NCBI RefSeq assembly: GCF_029504655.1
Contig: NZ_JAQFIL010000001.1
Span: 4,097,001-4,161,000 of the forward strand
DNA from: Catalinimonas alkaloidigena
GTDB lineage: Bacteria; Bacteroidota; Bacteroidia; Cytophagales; Cyclobacteriaceae
DNA: 64,000 nucleotides
Direction: 5' to 3'
The translations under genes were made by a program, and so were the position numbers. The number at the start of each line of letters is the position of its first letter. The first letter of the stretch is position 1. Below the pieces are notes generated by a model. It saw only the letters and a list, made by a program, of their open reading frames with translations. It searched no databases and was not told the DNA's origin. Positions 14,385 through 21,717 of this stretch are shown piece by piece.

Positions 14385-15422
14385 ATGAGTTCCTCTGATG
14401 ATGCCCTTGATCGTTACATGAAAAAACTGACGGAATTGCAGTATGCCCGACAGGAAACACTTTATTCTGATGAAGAACTCAAGCAAATCGCGTTTGACTC
14501 AGGCTTTACTGAAGCTGAATGGCAAGAGGCCCGGAAACGCGCGGAGAAGCAGAAGCAAAGAGGAAAGTACCATATTGTTCATGCCAACTGGCAGGACGCA
14601 GTGGAAGAACTGGAGGCAGCCTGTGCCCTAACTCCTAATGATGCCGAAGCGCATACGATGGCTGCTGAAGCTTATATCAATCGTGGGGGCACCCAACAAA
14701 ATACGGAAGATTTTCGTCAGGCAGAATATCACCTGGATCAGGCGCTACTGATAGACAGCAAATATGAAAATGCATTTAAGTTAAAAAGAGAACTAAATAC
14801 TCGCCGTAAGATACTTACCACACAAACTCATAAAAGCACAAGAAACCGTAAACTTATTCGCTGGATGATTCTGGGAGGCATAGCATTAGTTGTAATTTTC
14901 TGGTATTTCACTTCTTATAACAGCATGGTAAATGCTGAAGAAGAAACCATAGAAGCCTGGGCACAGGTAGAAAATGTATACCAGCGTCGTGCCGACTTAA
15001 TTCCAAATCTTATATCTACTGTAGAGGCCGCTGCTGACTTTGAAAGAGAAGTGCTCACGGAAGTCACCCAGGCCCGAAGCCAGACTTTAGGAAACCCTGT
15101 AGACCCTACTGAACTTAACCCAACTGCGCTGCGTCAGTTTGAACAAAACCAGGCAGCATTAGGAGCATCACTTTCACGGCTGATAGCCGTGGCAGAAGAT
15201 TATCCTCAAATTACTGCTACTGAGAATTTTCGGGATTTGCAGGTTCAGTTGGAAGGCACAGAAAATCGTATCGCTGTGGAGCGAAGACGGTTTAATCAGG
15301 CTGTACAAGCCTACAATGCCAAAGCCCGTAAGTTCCCGTATAACCTCTTAGGATTTGATACTAAAGCCTATTTTTCAGCGAATGCAGGAGCAGAAAACGC
15401 ACCCAATGTAACATTTGATTGA
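14385..15422 (+). CDS. LemA family protein with N-terminal TPR-like region
   Basis: A 345-residue protein with three parts. The N-terminal 140 residues are helical and contain TPR-like text (WQDAVEELEAACALTPNDAEAHTMAAEAYINRG, then FRQAEYHLDQALLIDSKYENAFKL). One membrane helix follows (WMILGGIALVVIFWYF). The rest is a LemA domain: YNSMVNAEEETIEAWAQVENVYQRRADLIPNLISTVEAAADFEREVLTEVTQAR, with NRIAVERRRFNQAVQAYNAKARKFP near the end. LemA proteins are usually only about 190 residues, so the cytosolic TPR extension is notable. It leads a three-gene operon with two TPM proteins (the next start is 3 bases after the stop), the common LemA-TPM pairing of unknown envelope role. Confidence 0.9.
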   Translation: MSSSDDALDRYMKKLTELQYARQETLYSDEELKQIAFDSGFTEAEWQEARKRAEKQKQRGKYHIVHANWQDAVEELEAACALTPNDAEAHTMAAEAYINRGGTQQNTEDFRQAEYHLDQALLIDSKYENAFKLKRELNTRRKILTTQTHKSTRNRKLIRWMILGGIALVVIFWYFTSYNSMVNAEEETIEAWAQVENVYQRRADLIPNLISTVEAAADFEREVLTEVTQARSQTLGNPVDPTELNPTALRQFEQNQAALGASLSRLIAVAEDYPQITATENFRDLQVQLEGTENRIAVERRRFNQAVQAYNAKARKFPYNLLGFDTKAYFSANAGAENAPNVTFD

Positions 15423-15424
15423 TT

Positions 15425-16075
15425 ATGTCCCAGTCCCTTATCACTAAAGAAGAAGCATTACAAATCAAAAATGCAGTAACAAAGGCTGAAGAACTTTCGG
15501 GAGGAGATATTGTCCCGGTAATTTCGCGTCAGTCTTCCTGGTATGAGTACACGCTCTGGCGTGCGGGAGCGCTTTTCTCTCTACTGACTGCAATCGTACT
15601 CACCATCATTTACCTGAGCTCTGACACTTTGCTTTGGTTTCCTCCCTATTTATGGTTGCTCATTTGTACTACCGGAGGCATAGCAGGGGCTACGCTTACT
15701 GAGTCATTCTCTTTTATAAAACGTTTTTTTATCAGCAAAGAAAGTTTAAAGCAACAGGCCGAGAGCAGGGCAAAACAACTGTTTGTAGAACAATCCATCA
15801 GCCATACTGAGCAGCGTACCGGTATTCTTCTTTATATCAGTTTCTTTGAAAAGCATGCTATTATTTTACCCGATATCGGTATTAGTGAGATCGTTGACCA
15901 GAACGTATGGGATGAAATTTTACTTAAGCTGGTCAACGATATGAAAAATGGTGCATACGCCTCCGCTATTTGTCATGCTATTGTTAGTTGTGGTAAAGTA
16001 CTGGAAGAAAGCGGCATACAAAAGGTGATTGAGGATGATAATGAATTACCGGATAAAGTGCATATAGATGAATAA
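15425..16075 (+). CDS. TPM domain membrane protein (short form)
   Basis: A 216-residue protein starting at ATG 15425, three bases after the LemA stop. The N-terminus (LITKEEALQIKNAVTKAEELSGGDIVPVISRQSSWYEYTLWRAGALFSLL) and later text HTEQRTGILLYISFFEKHAIILPDIGISEIVDQNVWDEILLKLV are the TPM/YgcG-type domain, here split by two membrane helices (AGALFSLLTAIVLTIIYLSS and LWLLICTTGGIAGATL). It overlaps the next gene by 8 bases, so translation is probably coupled. It is the usual cytosol-facing partner of the long TPM protein in LemA operons. Confidence 0.85.
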   Translation: MSQSLITKEEALQIKNAVTKAEELSGGDIVPVISRQSSWYEYTLWRAGALFSLLTAIVLTIIYLSSDTLLWFPPYLWLLICTTGGIAGATLTESFSFIKRFFISKESLKQQAESRAKQLFVEQSISHTEQRTGILLYISFFEKHAIILPDIGISEIVDQNVWDEILLKLVNDMKNGAYASAICHAIVSCGKVLEESGIQKVIEDDNELPDKVHIDE

Positions 16076-17180
16076 GCGCTTACCCAATCTTCGCAGATGG
16101 TTAATGCTGTTGTTCATCCTAAGCTTCCATGCTTCCTGGACCCAGGAAGTTCCTTACCTCTCCGCCCGTGTCAACGATTATGCCGATCTGATACCTGATC
16201 CACAAGAGAGGCTACTGGAAGAGAAGTTGTATAACTTTGAACAACAAAGTACGCATCAGCTTGTCATACTCACCATCAACAGCCTGGAGGGCGGTGATCT
16301 GGAAGACTTTGCAGTACGCACCTTTGAAAAATGGAAGCTGGGACAAGCCAGTAAAGATAATGGTGTGCTCTTACTCATCTCTTCCGAAGATCGTAAACTT
16401 CGTATAGAGGTGGGCTACGGACTGGAGCCTTATCTCACAGATGCCCAGGCCAGCCGTATCATTCGTGATGTGGTCGTACCTTACTTCCGTCAGGATAGTT
16501 ATGCAGAGGGCATTACCGCTGGCGCAGATGCAATTATTCGTCAAATTGAAGGCACAGGGGAACTGCCTGAACCACAGGAGGGCAGCGGGGGTGGAAGTAG
16601 TTTTTTCCATTGGTTGCTTACTGCTATCATGAGCGTGATTGCATTGGGGCTCGTATTATTTCTGGTCAAAAGACACCGCAGAAACCGCCCCAGAGTAAGT
16701 CCTGAGACAGGCCTGCCCATGAAGAAACTGAGTGAGAAAGAGGAGGATATCCATCTGGACCCAGGACAGCAGGTGGAAGAATCTATCGGCTCGGTGGATT
16801 ATGATGTCTGGGTATCAGGAAAAGAAAATGATATACTCATCATTCCCTACAAAAACTTCTGGGAGCAGTCGTACACTACATGTCCTAAATGCGGATATAG
16901 AACCTATTACCGTAAAGCTACCAAAGTAATTAAAAGTGCTACGTATGCCCATCATGGTAAGGGTGAGAGAATATATGCCTGTAAGCACTGCGATTACACC
17001 CAACATAAAGCGTATCGTATCCCCAAGCTCCAAAAGCAAAAAACCGTTATTATTCCCACCGGTGGCGGAGGAAACTTCGGACGTGGCGGGGGCTTTAGCG
17101 GAGGAGGCGGGTTTTCAGGGGGAGGATTTAGTGGAGGTGGTGGTTTTAGTGGCGGCGGCGGAGCATCTGGCAGTTGGTAA
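16068..17180 (+). CDS. TPM domain protein with zinc-ribbon-like segment and Gly-rich tail
   Basis: A 370-residue protein with a signal peptide (MNKRLPNLRRWLMLLFILSFHASWTQ). The periplasmic TPM domain (RVNDYADLIPDPQERLLEEKLYNFEQQSTHQLVILTINSLEGGDLEDFAVRTFEKWKLG and GVLLLISSEDRKLRIEVGYGLEPYLTDAQA) is followed by a membrane helix (WLLTAIMSVIALGLVLFLV). The cytosolic part has two CxxC pairs (TTCPKCGYRTYY and YACKHCDYTQHK) fit to bind zinc, and the protein ends in a low-complexity GGGGFSGGG tail. Such Gly-rich tails with a final SW are usual for YgcG-type proteins. The Cys pairs in the cytosolic loop are an extra feature. It closes the LemA operon. Confidence 0.9.
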   Translation: MNKRLPNLRRWLMLLFILSFHASWTQEVPYLSARVNDYADLIPDPQERLLEEKLYNFEQQSTHQLVILTINSLEGGDLEDFAVRTFEKWKLGQASKDNGVLLLISSEDRKLRIEVGYGLEPYLTDAQASRIIRDVVVPYFRQDSYAEGITAGADAIIRQIEGTGELPEPQEGSGGGSSFFHWLLTAIMSVIALGLVLFLVKRHRRNRPRVSPETGLPMKKLSEKEEDIHLDPGQQVEESIGSVDYDVWVSGKENDILIIPYKNFWEQSYTTCPKCGYRTYYRKATKVIKSATYAHHGKGERIYACKHCDYTQHKAYRIPKLQKQKTVIIPTGGGGNFGRGGGFSGGGGFSGGGFSGGGGFSGGGGASGSW

Positions 17181-17321: not shown

Positions 17322-17930
17322 ATGAAATCACTTAAACTTATTGCAAGCGTTGCACTCATTGCTTCAGTACTGGTATCTTTTACCCTGCCTACCAAAGTAG
17401 AATCTTATAATGTAGATGCTGAGCAAAGCACACTCATATGGACAGGGCGTAAGGTAACCGGAGAGCATACGGGAACCATTAATATCAAAGAAGGAAATCT
17501 GGAGGTAAATGGCGAAAAGCTTGAAGGCGGAAGCTTTACCATTGATATGAGCACAATTGAGAATGCCGATCTGGAAGGCGAATATAAAGGTAAACTGGAA
17601 GGGCATCTCAAATCTGATGACTTTTTTGGCGTAGCCAGCCATCCTACTGCTCAATTTGTCATCACCCAGGCCAGGGCCCAGGAAAATGGACAGTACGAAA
17701 TCACTGGTGACCTGACAATCAAAAATATTACCAACGAAGTGACTTTTCCTGCTGAAGTAAAAGTAAGCGGAAATCAGGTAACTGCCGACGCTAAAATTGT
17801 AGTAGACCGTTCAAAATACAATGTACGCTATGGTTCAGGAAGCTTCTTTGATAATCTGGGAGATAAGACCATCTATGATGAGTTTGACCTGGAAGTAAGC
17901 CTGGTAGCCAATACTGCCGTAGGTAAATAA
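17322..17930 (+). CDS. YceI family protein
   Basis: A 202-residue exported protein (signal peptide MKSLKLIASVALIASVLVSFTLP). The lipocalin-like YceI barrel is clear: YNVDAEQSTLIWTGRKVTGEHTGTINIKEGNLEVNG, GGSFTIDMSTIENAD, HLKSDDFFGVASHPTAQFVITQA and ITGDLTIKNITNEVTFPAEV, ending with YNVRYGSGSFFDNLGDKTIYDEFDLEVSLV. Family members bind polyisoprenoids or amphiphilic molecules in the periplasm. It stands alone, with a good terminator directly downstream. Confidence 0.93.
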   Translation: MKSLKLIASVALIASVLVSFTLPTKVESYNVDAEQSTLIWTGRKVTGEHTGTINIKEGNLEVNGEKLEGGSFTIDMSTIENADLEGEYKGKLEGHLKSDDFFGVASHPTAQFVITQARAQENGQYEITGDLTIKNITNEVTFPAEVKVSGNQVTADAKIVVDRSKYNVRYGSGSFFDNLGDKTIYDEFDLEVSLVANTAVGK

Positions 17931-17955
17931 ATATTACTCGTTTAGCCTTTACTTG

Positions 17956-17989
17956 CCTCTTTCGGTATTGCCGGGAGAGGTTTTTTTTT
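17956..17989 (+). terminator. Rho-independent terminator of the YceI gene
   Basis: A 10-bp stem (17956-17965 with 17971-17980, including two G-T pairs) and a five-base loop are followed by nine T residues. Confidence 0.85.
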
Positions 17990-18069: not shown

Positions 18070-19110
18070 TTACAGTGTATTGACCGTCTTATTGTCAATA
18101 GCTCCATCATAGGTATTACGGTAATACACTTTTTTCTCTATCGCCCTGATGATCTTACTGCCGTAATCAACTTCATACATCTGCGACATCAGATTGAGTC
18201 CTCCCGGACTGAATACATTTACTTCCATCAGCTTATCTCCTACGATGTCTACACCTACCAGAAACATTCCGTCCTGTACCAGTTTCGGACGCAGTACCTC
18301 TACCAATTGTAACATTTCTTCAGTGACTTCTGCTTTTTTGGGTTGTCCACCCGCATGAATGTTACTTCTAATCTCATCGGCATGATTTACCCTTCGCAAG
18401 CCTGCGTATTTGCCATTACACTGCAAGGGTTTACCGTTCATCAGGAACAGGCGGGTATCACCTTCCTTGGCTTTGGGCAAATACTCCTGGGCAATGATAT
18501 AACCATCTCTGCTTATGGCTTCGATGATCTGGTTAAGATTACTCTTTGACTTACTGTCAACCATAAATACATTGGCTCCTCCCGAACCCTGCAAAGGTTT
18601 AAGTATCATCTTTTCCTTCTCATCTTTAAAAAATGCGTGTATTTCTTTGGGATCACGGGTAATAATGGTCCTGGGACGCAGAATTTCAGGAAAGTGCTGA
18701 AAGTACATCTTATTGATGGCATCCGACAAACTTCCGGGATGGTTCAAAACGATCACATTATCTTTCAGCGCAATCTGCGCAAAGATGTAGGGTGCGTTCT
18801 GTGCCCAGTTTCTTTCGTTCATATCATCGGCCGGATTATTTCTCAGAAATATTACATCCAGATCTACTGAACTGATATGGGTGGTTTCTGCATTCCGCAA
18901 ATCTTTAAGAAAAGTAGAGGATGATTTGTATTTATGTTCTTTTACCGACTTGGCACGGGCTACCATATGTCCGTCTGAGGTATACCCCAGGTCACCTACG
19001 CCAATGATAAATACTTCATGGCCCATTTTATACGCTGAAAGAGCAAGGTATATCGTAGTATACCCTTCCTTTTCTGTTTCTATACTATTAATGACGAATG
19101 CTATCTTCAT
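18070..19110 (-). CDS. Glutathione-synthase-like ATP-grasp ligase
   Basis: A 346-residue cytosolic protein. The N-terminal Rossmann-like part (MKIAFVINSIETEKEGYTTIYLALSAYKMGHEVFIIG) and the sequence NNPADDMNERNWAQ, VIVLNHPGSLSDAINKMYFQHFP match the GshB-like pre-ATP-grasp domain. KEKMILKPLQGSGGANVFMV is the ATP-grasp glycine-rich loop with its lysine, and VGVDIVGDKLMEVNVFSPGGL carries the magnesium-binding acidic residue and Asn. Such enzymes join a carboxylate to an amine via an acyl phosphate. No gamma-glutamylcysteine ligase is nearby, and the gene overlaps the QEGLA metallopeptidase gene by 23 bases. A role in a dedicated peptide or protein-tail modification therefore seems more likely than bulk glutathione synthesis (inference). 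Confidence 0.88.
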   Translation of the reverse strand: MKIAFVINSIETEKEGYTTIYLALSAYKMGHEVFIIGVGDLGYTSDGHMVARAKSVKEHKYKSSSTFLKDLRNAETTHISSVDLDVIFLRNNPADDMNERNWAQNAPYIFAQIALKDNVIVLNHPGSLSDAINKMYFQHFPEILRPRTIITRDPKEIHAFFKDEKEKMILKPLQGSGGANVFMVDSKSKSNLNQIIEAISRDGYIIAQEYLPKAKEGDTRLFLMNGKPLQCNGKYAGLRRVNHADEIRSNIHAGGQPKKAEVTEEMLQLVEVLRPKLVQDGMFLVGVDIVGDKLMEVNVFSPGGLNLMSQMYEVDYGSKIIRAIEKKVYYRNTYDGAIDNKTVNTL

Positions 19111-20932
19111 GATTTATGAGTTTAGTAATTGAGATCCCCCGGCGAACTTCCTCTAGCCTGCTTTTGGCCTGTTCGCTATTGATATAAGGCGGTAGAAAGG
19201 GAGTTTTTACTACCCGCCGGTGTATTAATTCTTTGACAAAGGGCACATGAGCAAGGGCAAATTTACCGGCATAAAGCGGTTCTACTTCCCCCCCTTTTTT
19301 CATGTACTCCATTAATTTTACCAGACCTTTAAGATAAGCCGCATCTTTGGTGAGGCCTCCGCCTCTGTGTACCCTGGTACTGATGTTGAATGCGCTTTTT
19401 TCCGCAAAACCGTAATCTTGATTTAGCATGCGGTAAGTCTCTATAAAGTCTGCACCATCACAAACCGACTCTACAGCCAACACTCGGATGGCCAATATTC
19501 TTAAGCGGGCTGCGGTAAGTCCGCCCACTAAATATTCTGCCAATACCGCCAGCCCTTCCTGCAGAGGGTCATAGCCTGCCATGCCGGCATAAAACAACTT
19601 GAATGGCTGATGCTTACCGTTTCCGTAGGTAAGTATGTGCGTACCTACCTCATGTTGAAGCAGTGCCTCTGCCCTCGCTCCTTCTAAGGAAAAATCCTCT
19701 CCGATCAGAAGCCTGCTTTTAGAAACCATAATGCCATTGATATCTTTTCTGATCTCTACGCCCAGCTCCACATCAGGAAAATGTGGGCGATACTGACCCA
19801 ACTCATTGAGGGCTAACTGTTTAAATTCTTCAGCCTGCATCCGCTCCCTCTCCTCACTCTCTTCCGCTGAAACTTCTTCTAATAGCTCTTTTGCTATTTG
19901 AATAATGTCTTTTTCTACTTCACCATACAAGCTATTGCTCAGGTGCAGAAAGTTCTTGCTTTCTCTTTCTTCCAGCATCAGCAGTTGTTTTTCCAGCTCC
20001 ATCCTTTTGTCACGAAAGAGGAAAGCCAGCGTAGGATCTTCAATATTTTCCAATTGTAAATTGAACAGTCGGCGCTTCTCTTCTTCGGGGTCCAGCGAGA
20101 TCAGGCGGTAGTTAAATTCGGGAAGCCTACTGTAATGATGTTTTCTAAAGTTCTCAAACTCCACCGATTGGTTGACCGGGCTTACCCGCAGCAGAAAACT
20201 CATCTTCTCACTCACTTCCGCCAGCTGACGATCAGCCGAGCGAATCATCTGCGTCAATTGTGTCTTACCCAGGGTAAGGTAGTGACCAAACTGATTGGAA
20301 GTCTGTACCCTGATAAACTCAAAGGCCGCTTTTTTCAGCACCTGAGAGATTTTGCGCCTTACTTTACGGTACAGTAATGCATAGAGGTTCCCTTTTTCAT
20401 CCTGATAGATCAGTGGGATTTCTATGCCTACCTGCAACGTACCTACTTCTTTCGCTCTCTCTAGTGAAAGCAAAGGCGTCAATCCGGGAGGGTGACGTTG
20501 CACAGTGTTCAGTACCTGTACTTTTAGCGGGTTGTATACTGCTTCTATGTCTTCAAATCCTTCTTTCAGGGCTTTGATGGTAGCGGGCGAACGATCTTCA
20601 GGAGCATATATCTTAAAAGTTTCAATTCCATTTTCTGGAGCCATCCACAGTTCAATGATCATAAAAGCATGGAATGCATGTGAAGCTGTAGCCGCAATGC
20701 AGAAAAGCAGTTCATCAATTTCCAGATCCTGACGTGCGACAAGGTAGGCCCCCTGCGTCTTCAGCAAACCAGACAGATAAGTATCTTCCTTATCGGCATA
20801 GCGATATACGCAGAGGTAAGGAAGCGGCTTGTCAATAAAGAGCTTACCTCCCTCCGGTAAGCGTCGGTTCACACTCTTGCCATTCGAGAGCGAGCGACAC
20901 ACGTAATTAATGAATGTTTTTTCCAGACTCAT
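19088..20932 (-). CDS. QEGLA-motif (DUF1704/MATCAP-like) metallopeptidase homologue
   Basis: A 614-residue cytosolic protein of the group annotated as flavohemoglobin expression-modulating QEGLA motif proteins. The C-terminal half carries HEVGTH (residues 427-432), an HExxxH zinc motif, and about 26 residues later QEGLA (458-462), whose Glu is the expected third ligand. Mammalian members of this family (MATCAP) remove the C-terminal tyrosine of tubulin, so a carboxypeptidase activity is plausible; the bacterial members are uncharacterised as far as I know. The N-terminal 200 residues resemble the domain that precedes it in bacterial members. It overlaps the upstream amidohydrolase gene by 4 bases (ATGA) and the downstream ATP-grasp gene by 23, so all three are translated together. 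Confidence 0.9.
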   Translation of the reverse strand: MSLEKTFINYVCRSLSNGKSVNRRLPEGGKLFIDKPLPYLCVYRYADKEDTYLSGLLKTQGAYLVARQDLEIDELLFCIAATASHAFHAFMIIELWMAPENGIETFKIYAPEDRSPATIKALKEGFEDIEAVYNPLKVQVLNTVQRHPPGLTPLLSLERAKEVGTLQVGIEIPLIYQDEKGNLYALLYRKVRRKISQVLKKAAFEFIRVQTSNQFGHYLTLGKTQLTQMIRSADRQLAEVSEKMSFLLRVSPVNQSVEFENFRKHHYSRLPEFNYRLISLDPEEEKRRLFNLQLENIEDPTLAFLFRDKRMELEKQLLMLEERESKNFLHLSNSLYGEVEKDIIQIAKELLEEVSAEESEERERMQAEEFKQLALNELGQYRPHFPDVELGVEIRKDINGIMVSKSRLLIGEDFSLEGARAEALLQHEVGTHILTYGNGKHQPFKLFYAGMAGYDPLQEGLAVLAEYLVGGLTAARLRILAIRVLAVESVCDGADFIETYRMLNQDYGFAEKSAFNISTRVHRGGGLTKDAAYLKGLVKLMEYMKKGGEVEPLYAGKFALAHVPFVKELIHRRVVKTPFLPPYINSEQAKSRLEEVRRGISITKLINHEDSIRH

Positions 20933-21717
20933 GCTTTCACTTTGAAGATCTCTTCAGCCGCTTCACGTACCGGCAGCATAGAAGAAATAAATAACTCTCT
21001 AAGGTGTTTAAGCTGATCCTGATTGGCTTCTCCAGTCCACTCGTTCATAAAAAACTTCTTCACTTCTACAGGCAGCACACACACCCTGTCTCCATAGTGA
21101 TCGTTGATCCACTTACTGAAATAACCTCCCTTAAATTTCACATTCTCCCGCACGTCCAGATGCCTCCCTTCAAAATTATATTCCCTGAAGCTTTGTATCA
21201 GCGTATCCACCACAGCAGCCCATTGCTTGCGGTTCATGTTCTGCGTGCCGATGTTGATTTCCGGATTCTCCTCAGGACTGGCGTAACGGTCTACACCTTC
21301 CCGACGAAAGTTGTAAGAATGAAAATCATACACGACCAGCCAGGGATGCTTCAGTAGCAGTTGATCCAGATGATCGGCGAGCTGCCGGTAAAAATTATCG
21401 TAAACATTCAGGGATTTTTCTATCAGCTCGGCAGGGACGTCTTCTTTCCATACCTGTAAACCCCAGCTATCTTTAGGTTTTGAGTACACTGCCTTTTCCC
21501 TTGGCCGATTGACATCTACCTCAAAGCGGGAGTTGTGTACTTTTATCGTATTGTCGGATATATGTAGCCACTCCGTCGTGAAGGGGTCTTCTTCTCTCAG
21601 ACGCTCTGTCTCATTCAGGTTCAGGTAAGGCAGAAGTTCAGGCCTGATCTGATGCCCATTGTGTATGGCCGCCGTCACGATGGGGCTATCTCCAGTATTG
21701 ATTTCTATGTGTACCAT
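20929..21717 (-). CDS. N-formylglutamate amidohydrolase-like protein
   Basis: A 262-residue cytosolic protein. Family motifs: AAIHNGHQIRPEL near the N-terminus (His metal ligands), SRFEVDVNRPREKAVYS (the Asp-x-Asn-Arg substrate motif) and WLVVYDFHSYNFRREG (Asp-x-His). Family enzymes hydrolyse N-formylglutamate in histidine breakdown, but no hut genes are in view. This member is the first gene of a coupled operon with a MATCAP-like peptidase and an ATP-grasp ligase. A different amide substrate made or used in that pathway is therefore likely (inference). An upstream gap of about 310 bases carries the promoter. Confidence 0.9.
   Translation of the reverse strand: MVHIEINTGDSPIVTAAIHNGHQIRPELLPYLNLNETERLREEDPFTTEWLHISDNTIKVHNSRFEVDVNRPREKAVYSKPKDSWGLQVWKEDVPAELIEKSLNVYDNFYRQLADHLDQLLLKHPWLVVYDFHSYNFRREGVDRYASPEENPEINIGTQNMNRKQWAAVVDTLIQSFREYNFEGRHLDVRENVKFKGGYFSKWINDHYGDRVCVLPVEVKKFFMNEWTGEANQDQLKHLRELFISSMLPVREAAEEIFKVKA

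Follow-up and report, generated by a model that had tools for sequence, protein, structure and literature searches.

A conserved bacterial gene trio of an N-formylglutamate amidohydrolase-like enzyme, a MATCAP-type protein and a glutathione synthetase-type ATP-grasp ligase

Gene Organization of the Trio

Three overlapping genes are found on the minus strand of the genome of Catalinimonas alkaloidigena, in a window of 64,000 nucleotides (contig NZ_JAQFIL010000001.1, positions 4,097,001–4,161,000). They are designated here FG, for the gene related to N-formylglutamate amidohydrolases (FGases), QE, for the QEGLA/MATCAP gene, and GS, for the ATP-grasp gene (Table 1). The initial annotation described the three genes as overlapping by 4 and 23 bases, and the coordinates of the open reading frames (ORFs) confirm this. 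The trio is a functional unit conserved far beyond chance. A tentative interpretation is that it makes and trims a short peptide.

Table 1. Features of the trio. Positions are those of the window.
Feature	Position	Strand	Basis
FG: FGase-family (PF05013) zinc amidohydrolase, 262 aa	20929..21717	-	ORF + Pfam
QE: QEGLA/MATCAP protein, long subfamily, 614 aa	19088..20932	-	ORF + Pfam
QE residues 1-225: apparent degenerate FGase domain, no Pfam assignment	20258..20932	-	profile comparison
QE residues 260-590: MATCAP gluzincin carboxypeptidase domain (PF08014)	19163..20155	-	Pfam, structure profile
HEVGTH zinc motif, QE residues 427-432	19637..19654	-	sequence
QEG, QE residues 458-460, third zinc ligand Glu459	19553..19561	-	sequence alignment
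GS: glutathione synthetase-type ATP-grasp ligase, 346 aa, NF009110/PRK12458 subfamily	18070..19110	-	ORF + Pfam/NCBI models
FG/QE stop/start overlap, 4 bases	20929..20932	-	ORF coordinates
QE/GS overlap, 23 bases	19088..19110	-	ORF coordinates

Conservation of the Trio

The loci compared here were found through QE. They are the best 80 of 563 confirmed stretches and are biased to long forms of QE; by their titles and tree labels they represent 13 phyla, and many are metagenome-assembled genomes. GS is present in 79 of the 80 loci, and it lies downstream of QE on the same strand in 75 and within 50 bases in 69. FG lies upstream of QE on the same strand in 45 loci, within 50 bases in 39. Conservation of the three-gene order had been set as a check by the initial annotation, and the ligase indeed accompanies the MATCAP-type protein. 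Gene overlaps in these other loci are upper limits, since each ORF is taken to begin at the earliest start codon that follows a stop.

In a sample of 247 genomes of the phylum, PF08014, the domain family of MATCAP, is seen in 15. In the region around QE, 12 of the 14 QE genomes other than C. alkaloidigena contain FG, QE and GS, one contains QE and GS with an AstE/AspA-type hydrolase (L029), and one contains QE alone (L016). The model NF009110, which represents this type of ATP-grasp ligase, scores above its cut-off in 13 of the 247 genomes and 396 bits in one more; the next score, 215 bits, comes from a genome without PF08014. All 14 genomes with this ligase fall within the 15 QE genomes (hypergeometric probability 6e-22, with related genomes not independent). 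The pairwise distances of QE and GS are also correlated (rho 0.80). Among 59 relatives, PF08014 is present in 15, and in three of three within the genus. Nine new loci were seen among these relatives: FG-QE-GS in four (L134–L137), an FG-QE fusion in four (L130–L133), and a lone QE in one (L129).

Plasmids of Shinella, Mesorhizobium, Aminobacter and Roseateles carry the trio in the same order. All three genes are also on pSymB of Sinorhizobium meliloti ml59 and of the laboratory strain 1021, and in 1021 the order is again the same. A decayed copy, in several pieces, is seen on a Phyllobacterium plasmid (L037:3-3495).

A search for a short conserved peptide gene or target near the trio was also proposed by the initial annotation. 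No conserved small ORF that could be a carrier, precursor or target adjoins the module in 98 loci, with up to 900 bases considered on each side; clusters of small ORFs beside it include at most six loci each and are lineage-local. A cluster for a ribosomally synthesized and post-translationally modified peptide was rejected on this basis. No modifying enzyme recurs across lineages around QE besides FG, QE, GS and AstE/AspA. Ten Flavobacteriia-type loci (L017, L018, L019, L021, L022, L024, L041, L042, L043 and L048) have a transporter-like gene of ~440 aa upstream and in the same orientation. Several unrelated genes are shared upstream in the same ten loci, which points to a shared chromosomal neighbourhood.

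The MATCAP-Type Protein and Its N-Terminal Domain

QE matches PF08014 with an E-value of 6.6e-90 and 302 bits, against a gathering score of 27. The HExxxH motif and the glutamate of the [QE]EG motif, which the initial annotation had noticed, are both present. HExxxH is seen in 96 of 96 long QE ORFs and QEG in 93 of 96; four short ORFs among 100, and the fused L020, are excluded from these counts. The match to the structure of human KIAA0895L is weak with the single sequence (0.0045) and clear with the profile (1.9e-12), and QEG of QE is aligned with EEG of the human protein. From its family, QE is predicted to be a zinc carboxypeptidase.

Stand-alone QEGLA forms of ~425–450 aa (L016, L035, L036 and L129) constitute a clade apart from QE (support 100/99). 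Neither FG nor GS is seen in the stretches examined around them, which for L129 are flanks of 1.5 kb. Among 50,697 phage records, a phage origin of QE finds only a single partial match, covering 30% of the query, in Pseudomonas phage Y1 (OQ572403.1:63467-64042). In another genome (G251, C242:11374-12386), the MATCAP match is broken into two frames-adjacent pieces.

About 230 residues at the N-terminus of QE have no Pfam assignment. Comparison by hhalign with the FG family gave a probability of 94, an E-value of 1.6e-7 and a score of 60.9. Other family pairs (GS, AstE/AspA and the MATCAP domain) gave scores from 14 to at most 20.5, ten column shuffles 12–15.4, and one reversal 13.2. The score went down to 46–49 when FG was split by type, and it was 101 against the FGase domains of FGase-MATCAP fusions (L020, L124 and L130–L133). 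A HMMER profile of the QE N-terminus matches six of six fused FGase domains (best 7e-13) and eight of 53 FG at E < 1e-3; the best of 97 GS reaches only 2.3. The fused L020 was dropped from the later QE profile; the earlier one still contained it and so also matches type-B FG.

At QE residues 94–96, the FGase metal motif DxH is replaced by ELW, and none of 96 long QEs has histidine at the corresponding position. Arg44 is conserved in 91 of them and Glu94 in 92, the other four having Asp. By these profile comparisons, the N-terminal third of QE is a degenerate FGase domain without the metal site. Because Arg44 and Glu94 are conserved though the metal histidine is gone, this dead domain has probably been retained for binding. 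The FGase half of one fusion (L131, 535–2532) lacks the HxGH, EEDP, DxNR and DxH motifs and is the closest match to the QE N-terminus. It is likely, from its sequence, an intermediate toward the dead domain.

The ATP-Grasp Ligase

GS matches PF02955 with an E-value of 1.3e-52, and PF02951 as well. It passes NF009110 (PRK12458; 458.5 versus 408 bits) and falls below both equivalog models of GshB, TIGR01380 (218.6 < 299.05) and NF003573 (227.4 < 272). The analogy with tubulin-tyrosine ligase (TTL) drawn by the initial annotation holds at the level of the ATP-grasp superfamily and goes no further: the five Pfam hits of GS include no family of TTL, and the best match is glutathione synthetase. An identity with the S6 ligase RimK was rejected too (34.6 bits versus a cut-off of 331).

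Against the structure of Escherichia coli GshB (2.3e-37), GS retains K125, K160, R86, R210, R225, R233, D273, E281 and N283. T288 is changed to G, turning SPT into SPG, D9 is changed, and K265 is replaced by D. The threonine of the SPT motif is present in all five GshB rows, and glycine is present in the type A and type B rows of the module. We take the retained positions to bind ATP/Mg and, through the arginines, the substrate, and T288 to belong to the acceptor site. Because the ATP/Mg residues and the arginines are retained but T288 is changed to G, GS can be predicted to be an active ligase of the glutathione synthetase (GSH-S) family with an altered acceptor pocket.

In a tree of 70 rows, the five GshB sequences lie on one side of a branch (100/97), and the rest consists of eight type-B and 57 type-A sequences. 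The tree is based on a hand-picked list of 56 loci, and the program warns of long branches; the GshB of Paracoccus (L119), whose ORF was called as 580 aa, was excluded. In 14 of the 15 QE genomes, no gene matches GSH-S better than that of the module. Both types of GS are carried by L021, L022 and L043. More than one GS is seen in nine of the 80 loci, and two QE in three. Planctomycete arrays (L060, L065 and L113) contain two QE and three GS genes, those of L065 being in pieces at contig ends. In L039 (9828-10870), GS is read as two adjoining ORFs.

The Amidohydrolase and Its Replacement

FG belongs to the FGase superfamily, with both the PF05013 domain (E-value 2.8e-22) and the metal-site residues present. 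It is not assigned as an N-formylglutamate deformylase, being far under the HutG cut-off (TIGR02017; 34.4 versus 278.75). H19, E42/E43/D44, D131-x-H133, D68-x-N70-R71 and E218 are retained, and by analogy we presume these to bind the metal and the carboxylate. H19, E43, H133 and others are invariant over 39 aligned FG rows. All five motifs are seen in 51 of the 53 FG ORFs counted, after exclusion of 14 of 67 outside 240–300 aa. Profile searches for solved-structure relatives of FG gave none at E ≤ 1.

As the third gene, 51 of the 80 loci have an FGase and 20 have an AstE/AspA-type hydrolase; the remaining nine have neither, and no locus has both. Neither this exchange nor the degenerate domain of QE was noticed by the initial annotation. 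The AstE/AspA-type gene belongs to PF24827 in the four members scanned, is on the strand of QE in 18 of 20 loci, and contains all four motifs in 21 of 21 counted. The known substrates of both families are N-acyl-glutamate/aspartate, and we assume that the two share a common fold. Gene order also differs with the form of QE: a long QE (about 610–690 aa) accompanies the order FG-QE-GS, and a short QE (about 390 aa) the order GS-FG-QE.

A second FGase is encoded elsewhere in C. alkaloidigena (L125:4316-8489; contig C1, about 2888315–2892488), at the end of an operon of a C39 peptidase, an RLAN/RimK ATP-grasp protein, a GCS2 ligase and the FGase. These genes are also seen in another genome (G171, L126).

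Genomic Surroundings and Pathway Context

The downstream neighbour of the trio, YceI (17322–17930, plus strand), is convergent with it, and upstream the closest minus-strand ORF of 60 aa or more begins about 1 kb off; the trio therefore stands alone. A terminator-like hairpin follows YceI at 17955–17981. Promoter-like matches around the trio are not in excess over shuffled sequence. The seven neighbour ORFs scanned with Pfam between 14385 and 25604 encode LemA, two TPM proteins, YceI, Amidohydro_2, a methyltransferase and an SBF transporter. The LemA gene and the two TPM-domain genes, at 14385–17180, almost overlap.

The initial annotation saw no glutathione or histidine genes nearby that would explain the trio. 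This stands: none is among these seven ORFs. No urocanase is found in the C. alkaloidigena genome (99.7% complete), and GshA of PF04262 is absent from all 15 QE genomes. PF04107 is found in seven of the 15, including a single gene in a different operon of C. alkaloidigena; the other eight contain no recognised gamma-glutamylcysteine ligase of either family. Because PF04262 is absent from the QE genomes and urocanase from C. alkaloidigena, an ordinary glutathione or histidine pathway is unlikely as the role of the trio.

Possible Functions of the Trio

What is observed is that the trio is conserved as a unit with its catalytic residues intact, that fusions occur, that an FGase domain has degenerated, that the third component is exchanged and that GS is separate from GshB. 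The reactions, their order and the substrate proposed here are conditional. By family, an ATP-grasp enzyme forms an amide bond, and a gluzincin carboxypeptidase and an FGase or AstE hydrolyse one. The interpretation we favour, somewhat hesitantly, is that the trio is a self-contained module which makes and trims a short peptide. At the expense of ATP, GS would couple an amino acid with the free carboxylate of a small acidic peptide, probably a gamma-glutamyl- or N-acyl-glutamyl/aspartyl-like one. QE would remove the C-terminal residue from the product or a precursor, and its dead FGase domain may bind or dock an acidic end of this kind. FG, or the AstE/AspA-type hydrolase in its place, would cleave the amide of the N-acyl or terminal acidic residue. 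Together, the three enzymes would fix the length and the end of the peptide, most likely a soluble product made under particular conditions. A small acidic peptide is favoured as the substrate because the three genes are coupled and FG and AstE/AspA are interchangeable. The physical coupling of FGase and MATCAP by fusion, the lack of a carrier or precursor gene next to the module and the salt response described below are also counted for the make-and-trim interpretation.

Regulation of a probable member is reported in Photobacterium damselae. According to the accessible part of an RNA-seq study comparing 1% with 3% NaCl (PMC10308900), RS17020, treated there as GshB, is up 38.4-fold, RS17025, a QEGLA protein, 27.5-fold, and the hypothetical RS17005 18.6-fold. 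Photobacterium sp. DA100 has GS followed by an FG-QE fusion. From this order and the gene numbering, RS17020 and RS17025 appear to represent the module described here.

Several facts weigh against the peptide module. Because nine of the 80 loci have neither FG nor AstE/AspA, the third component is either not obligatory or located elsewhere; two of the nine (L065 and L097) end at a contig edge just upstream. No relation between the sequences of FG and AstE/AspA is detectable by hhalign (probability 0.5). Since their exchange falls within one QE clade (98/82), it may be a single event, in which case its statistic of 2.8e-12 is overstated. NF009110 bears the NCBI name glutathione synthetase. Type-B GS exceeds the cut-off of the GshB model NF003573 in seven of the 15 genomes (G130, G234, G088, G118, G134, G103 and G045), where it is likely to be wrongly named glutathione synthase. 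Finally, the studied relatives of QE, KIAA0895L and KIAA0895, cut protein C-termini, according to the accessible part of PMC10499314.

In a less probable explanation, the idea of the initial annotation, GS adds a residue to a protein C-terminus or side chain, and QE and FG remove it. It would be a bacterial counterpart of tubulin modification by TTL, MATCAP and CCP carboxypeptidases, or of RimK/RimB acting on S6. The catalytic domain of QE aligns with MATCAP at the zinc site, at QEG/EEG and at KDxxYxxG, and a fixed cellular target would explain the absence of an adjacent target gene. Against it, GS is in the GSH-S family, neither TTL nor RimK, with the GshB arginines retained; FGase and AstE/AspA act, as far as is known, on small molecules; and the patchy spread (15 of 247 genomes) ill fits an essential universal target. 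A bacterial pair of ligase and protease acting on a protein tail does exist, namely RimK/RimB on RpsF, as described in the accessible part of PMC12239564.

It can be speculated, with still more doubt, that tails of a cellular protein or carrier are written reversibly: a GSH-S-type ATP-grasp enzyme would add residues, and an enzyme of MATCAP type, its dead FGase domain serving as reader, would remove them. One half of this bacterial writer-eraser pair would then be the ancestor of animal MATCAP, the writer having been lost or TTL having taken its place.

An amino-group carrier or scaffold encoded elsewhere, similar to LysW or PEARL, is improbable. GS would load it, QE would release the product and FG would remove a protecting acyl group. 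The set of ligase, zinc carboxypeptidase and deacylase follows the logic of carrier pathways, and arrays with extra ligases (L060, L065, L068, L069, L082 and L113) hint at several loading steps. The lack of an adjoining conserved small ORF and of a further lineage-crossing modifying enzyme speaks against it.

Synthesis and turnover of glutathione, with GS a true GshB and the hydrolases degrading glutathione or its conjugates, is more improbable again. Its basis is the GSH-S family, the NCBI name and the retained substrate arginines. It is opposed by the eight QE genomes without a recognised gamma-glutamylcysteine ligase, by the loss of the SPT motif, by the position of GS outside the GshB rows and by its scores below both equivalog cut-offs. 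Histidine degradation or N-formylglutamate salvage, with FG an ordinary HutG beside incidental neighbours, has only its PF05013 membership in favour and can be dismissed: the TIGR02017 score is far too low, the neighbours are conserved across phyla, and the absence of urocanase refutes it in the main for C. alkaloidigena.

Comparison with Known Systems

Modules of a ligase and a peptidase are already known as a kind, RimK/RimB being one. The survey of amidoligase neighbourhoods by Iyer et al. in 2009 (Mol Biosyst) reportedly predicted many such operons. No description of the trio was found in the literature searched, which was mainly open-access and did not cover that survey; the matches to PF08014 in it are for the most part names of malaria genes. 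The interest of the trio is that bacterial relatives of the tubulin-tail carboxypeptidase have a ligase dedicated to them. The identity of the GS product would reveal the ancestral chemistry of MATCAP and set right the glutathione synthase annotations of a family; a new type of peptide metabolite or of protein modification may also come to light.

GS shares with E. coli GshB (1gsa) the fold family, the ATP/Mg residues and the substrate arginines. It differs in SPG for SPT, in the changes at D9 and K265, and in forming a separate clade, and many of its genomes lack a GshA partner. The C39 peptidase operon of C. alkaloidigena resembles the trio in coupling an FGase to amide ligases, but these are other ligases, and the operon contains neither MATCAP nor a GSH-S-type ligase. 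RimABK, responsible for polyglutamylation of S6, likewise couples an ATP-grasp ligase to a protease; the ligase of the trio belongs to another subfamily, and the RimABK protease, described in PMC12239564, to an unrelated class.

The same domain as QE residues 234–594 is found in TIGR02421, the flavohemoglobin expression-modulating QEGLA motif protein, whose equivalog cut-off QE misses (318.7 versus 338.65). With MATCAP/TMCP (KIAA0895L and KIAA0895; PF08014), QE shares the catalytic domain, HExxxH, the third glutamate in [QE]EG, a conserved N and KDxxYxxG. Unlike these proteins, for which tubulin is a substrate, QE is bacterial, has tubulin as no known substrate, carries an apparent degenerate FGase domain at its N-terminus or is fused to an FGase, and is encoded in an operon with a ligase.

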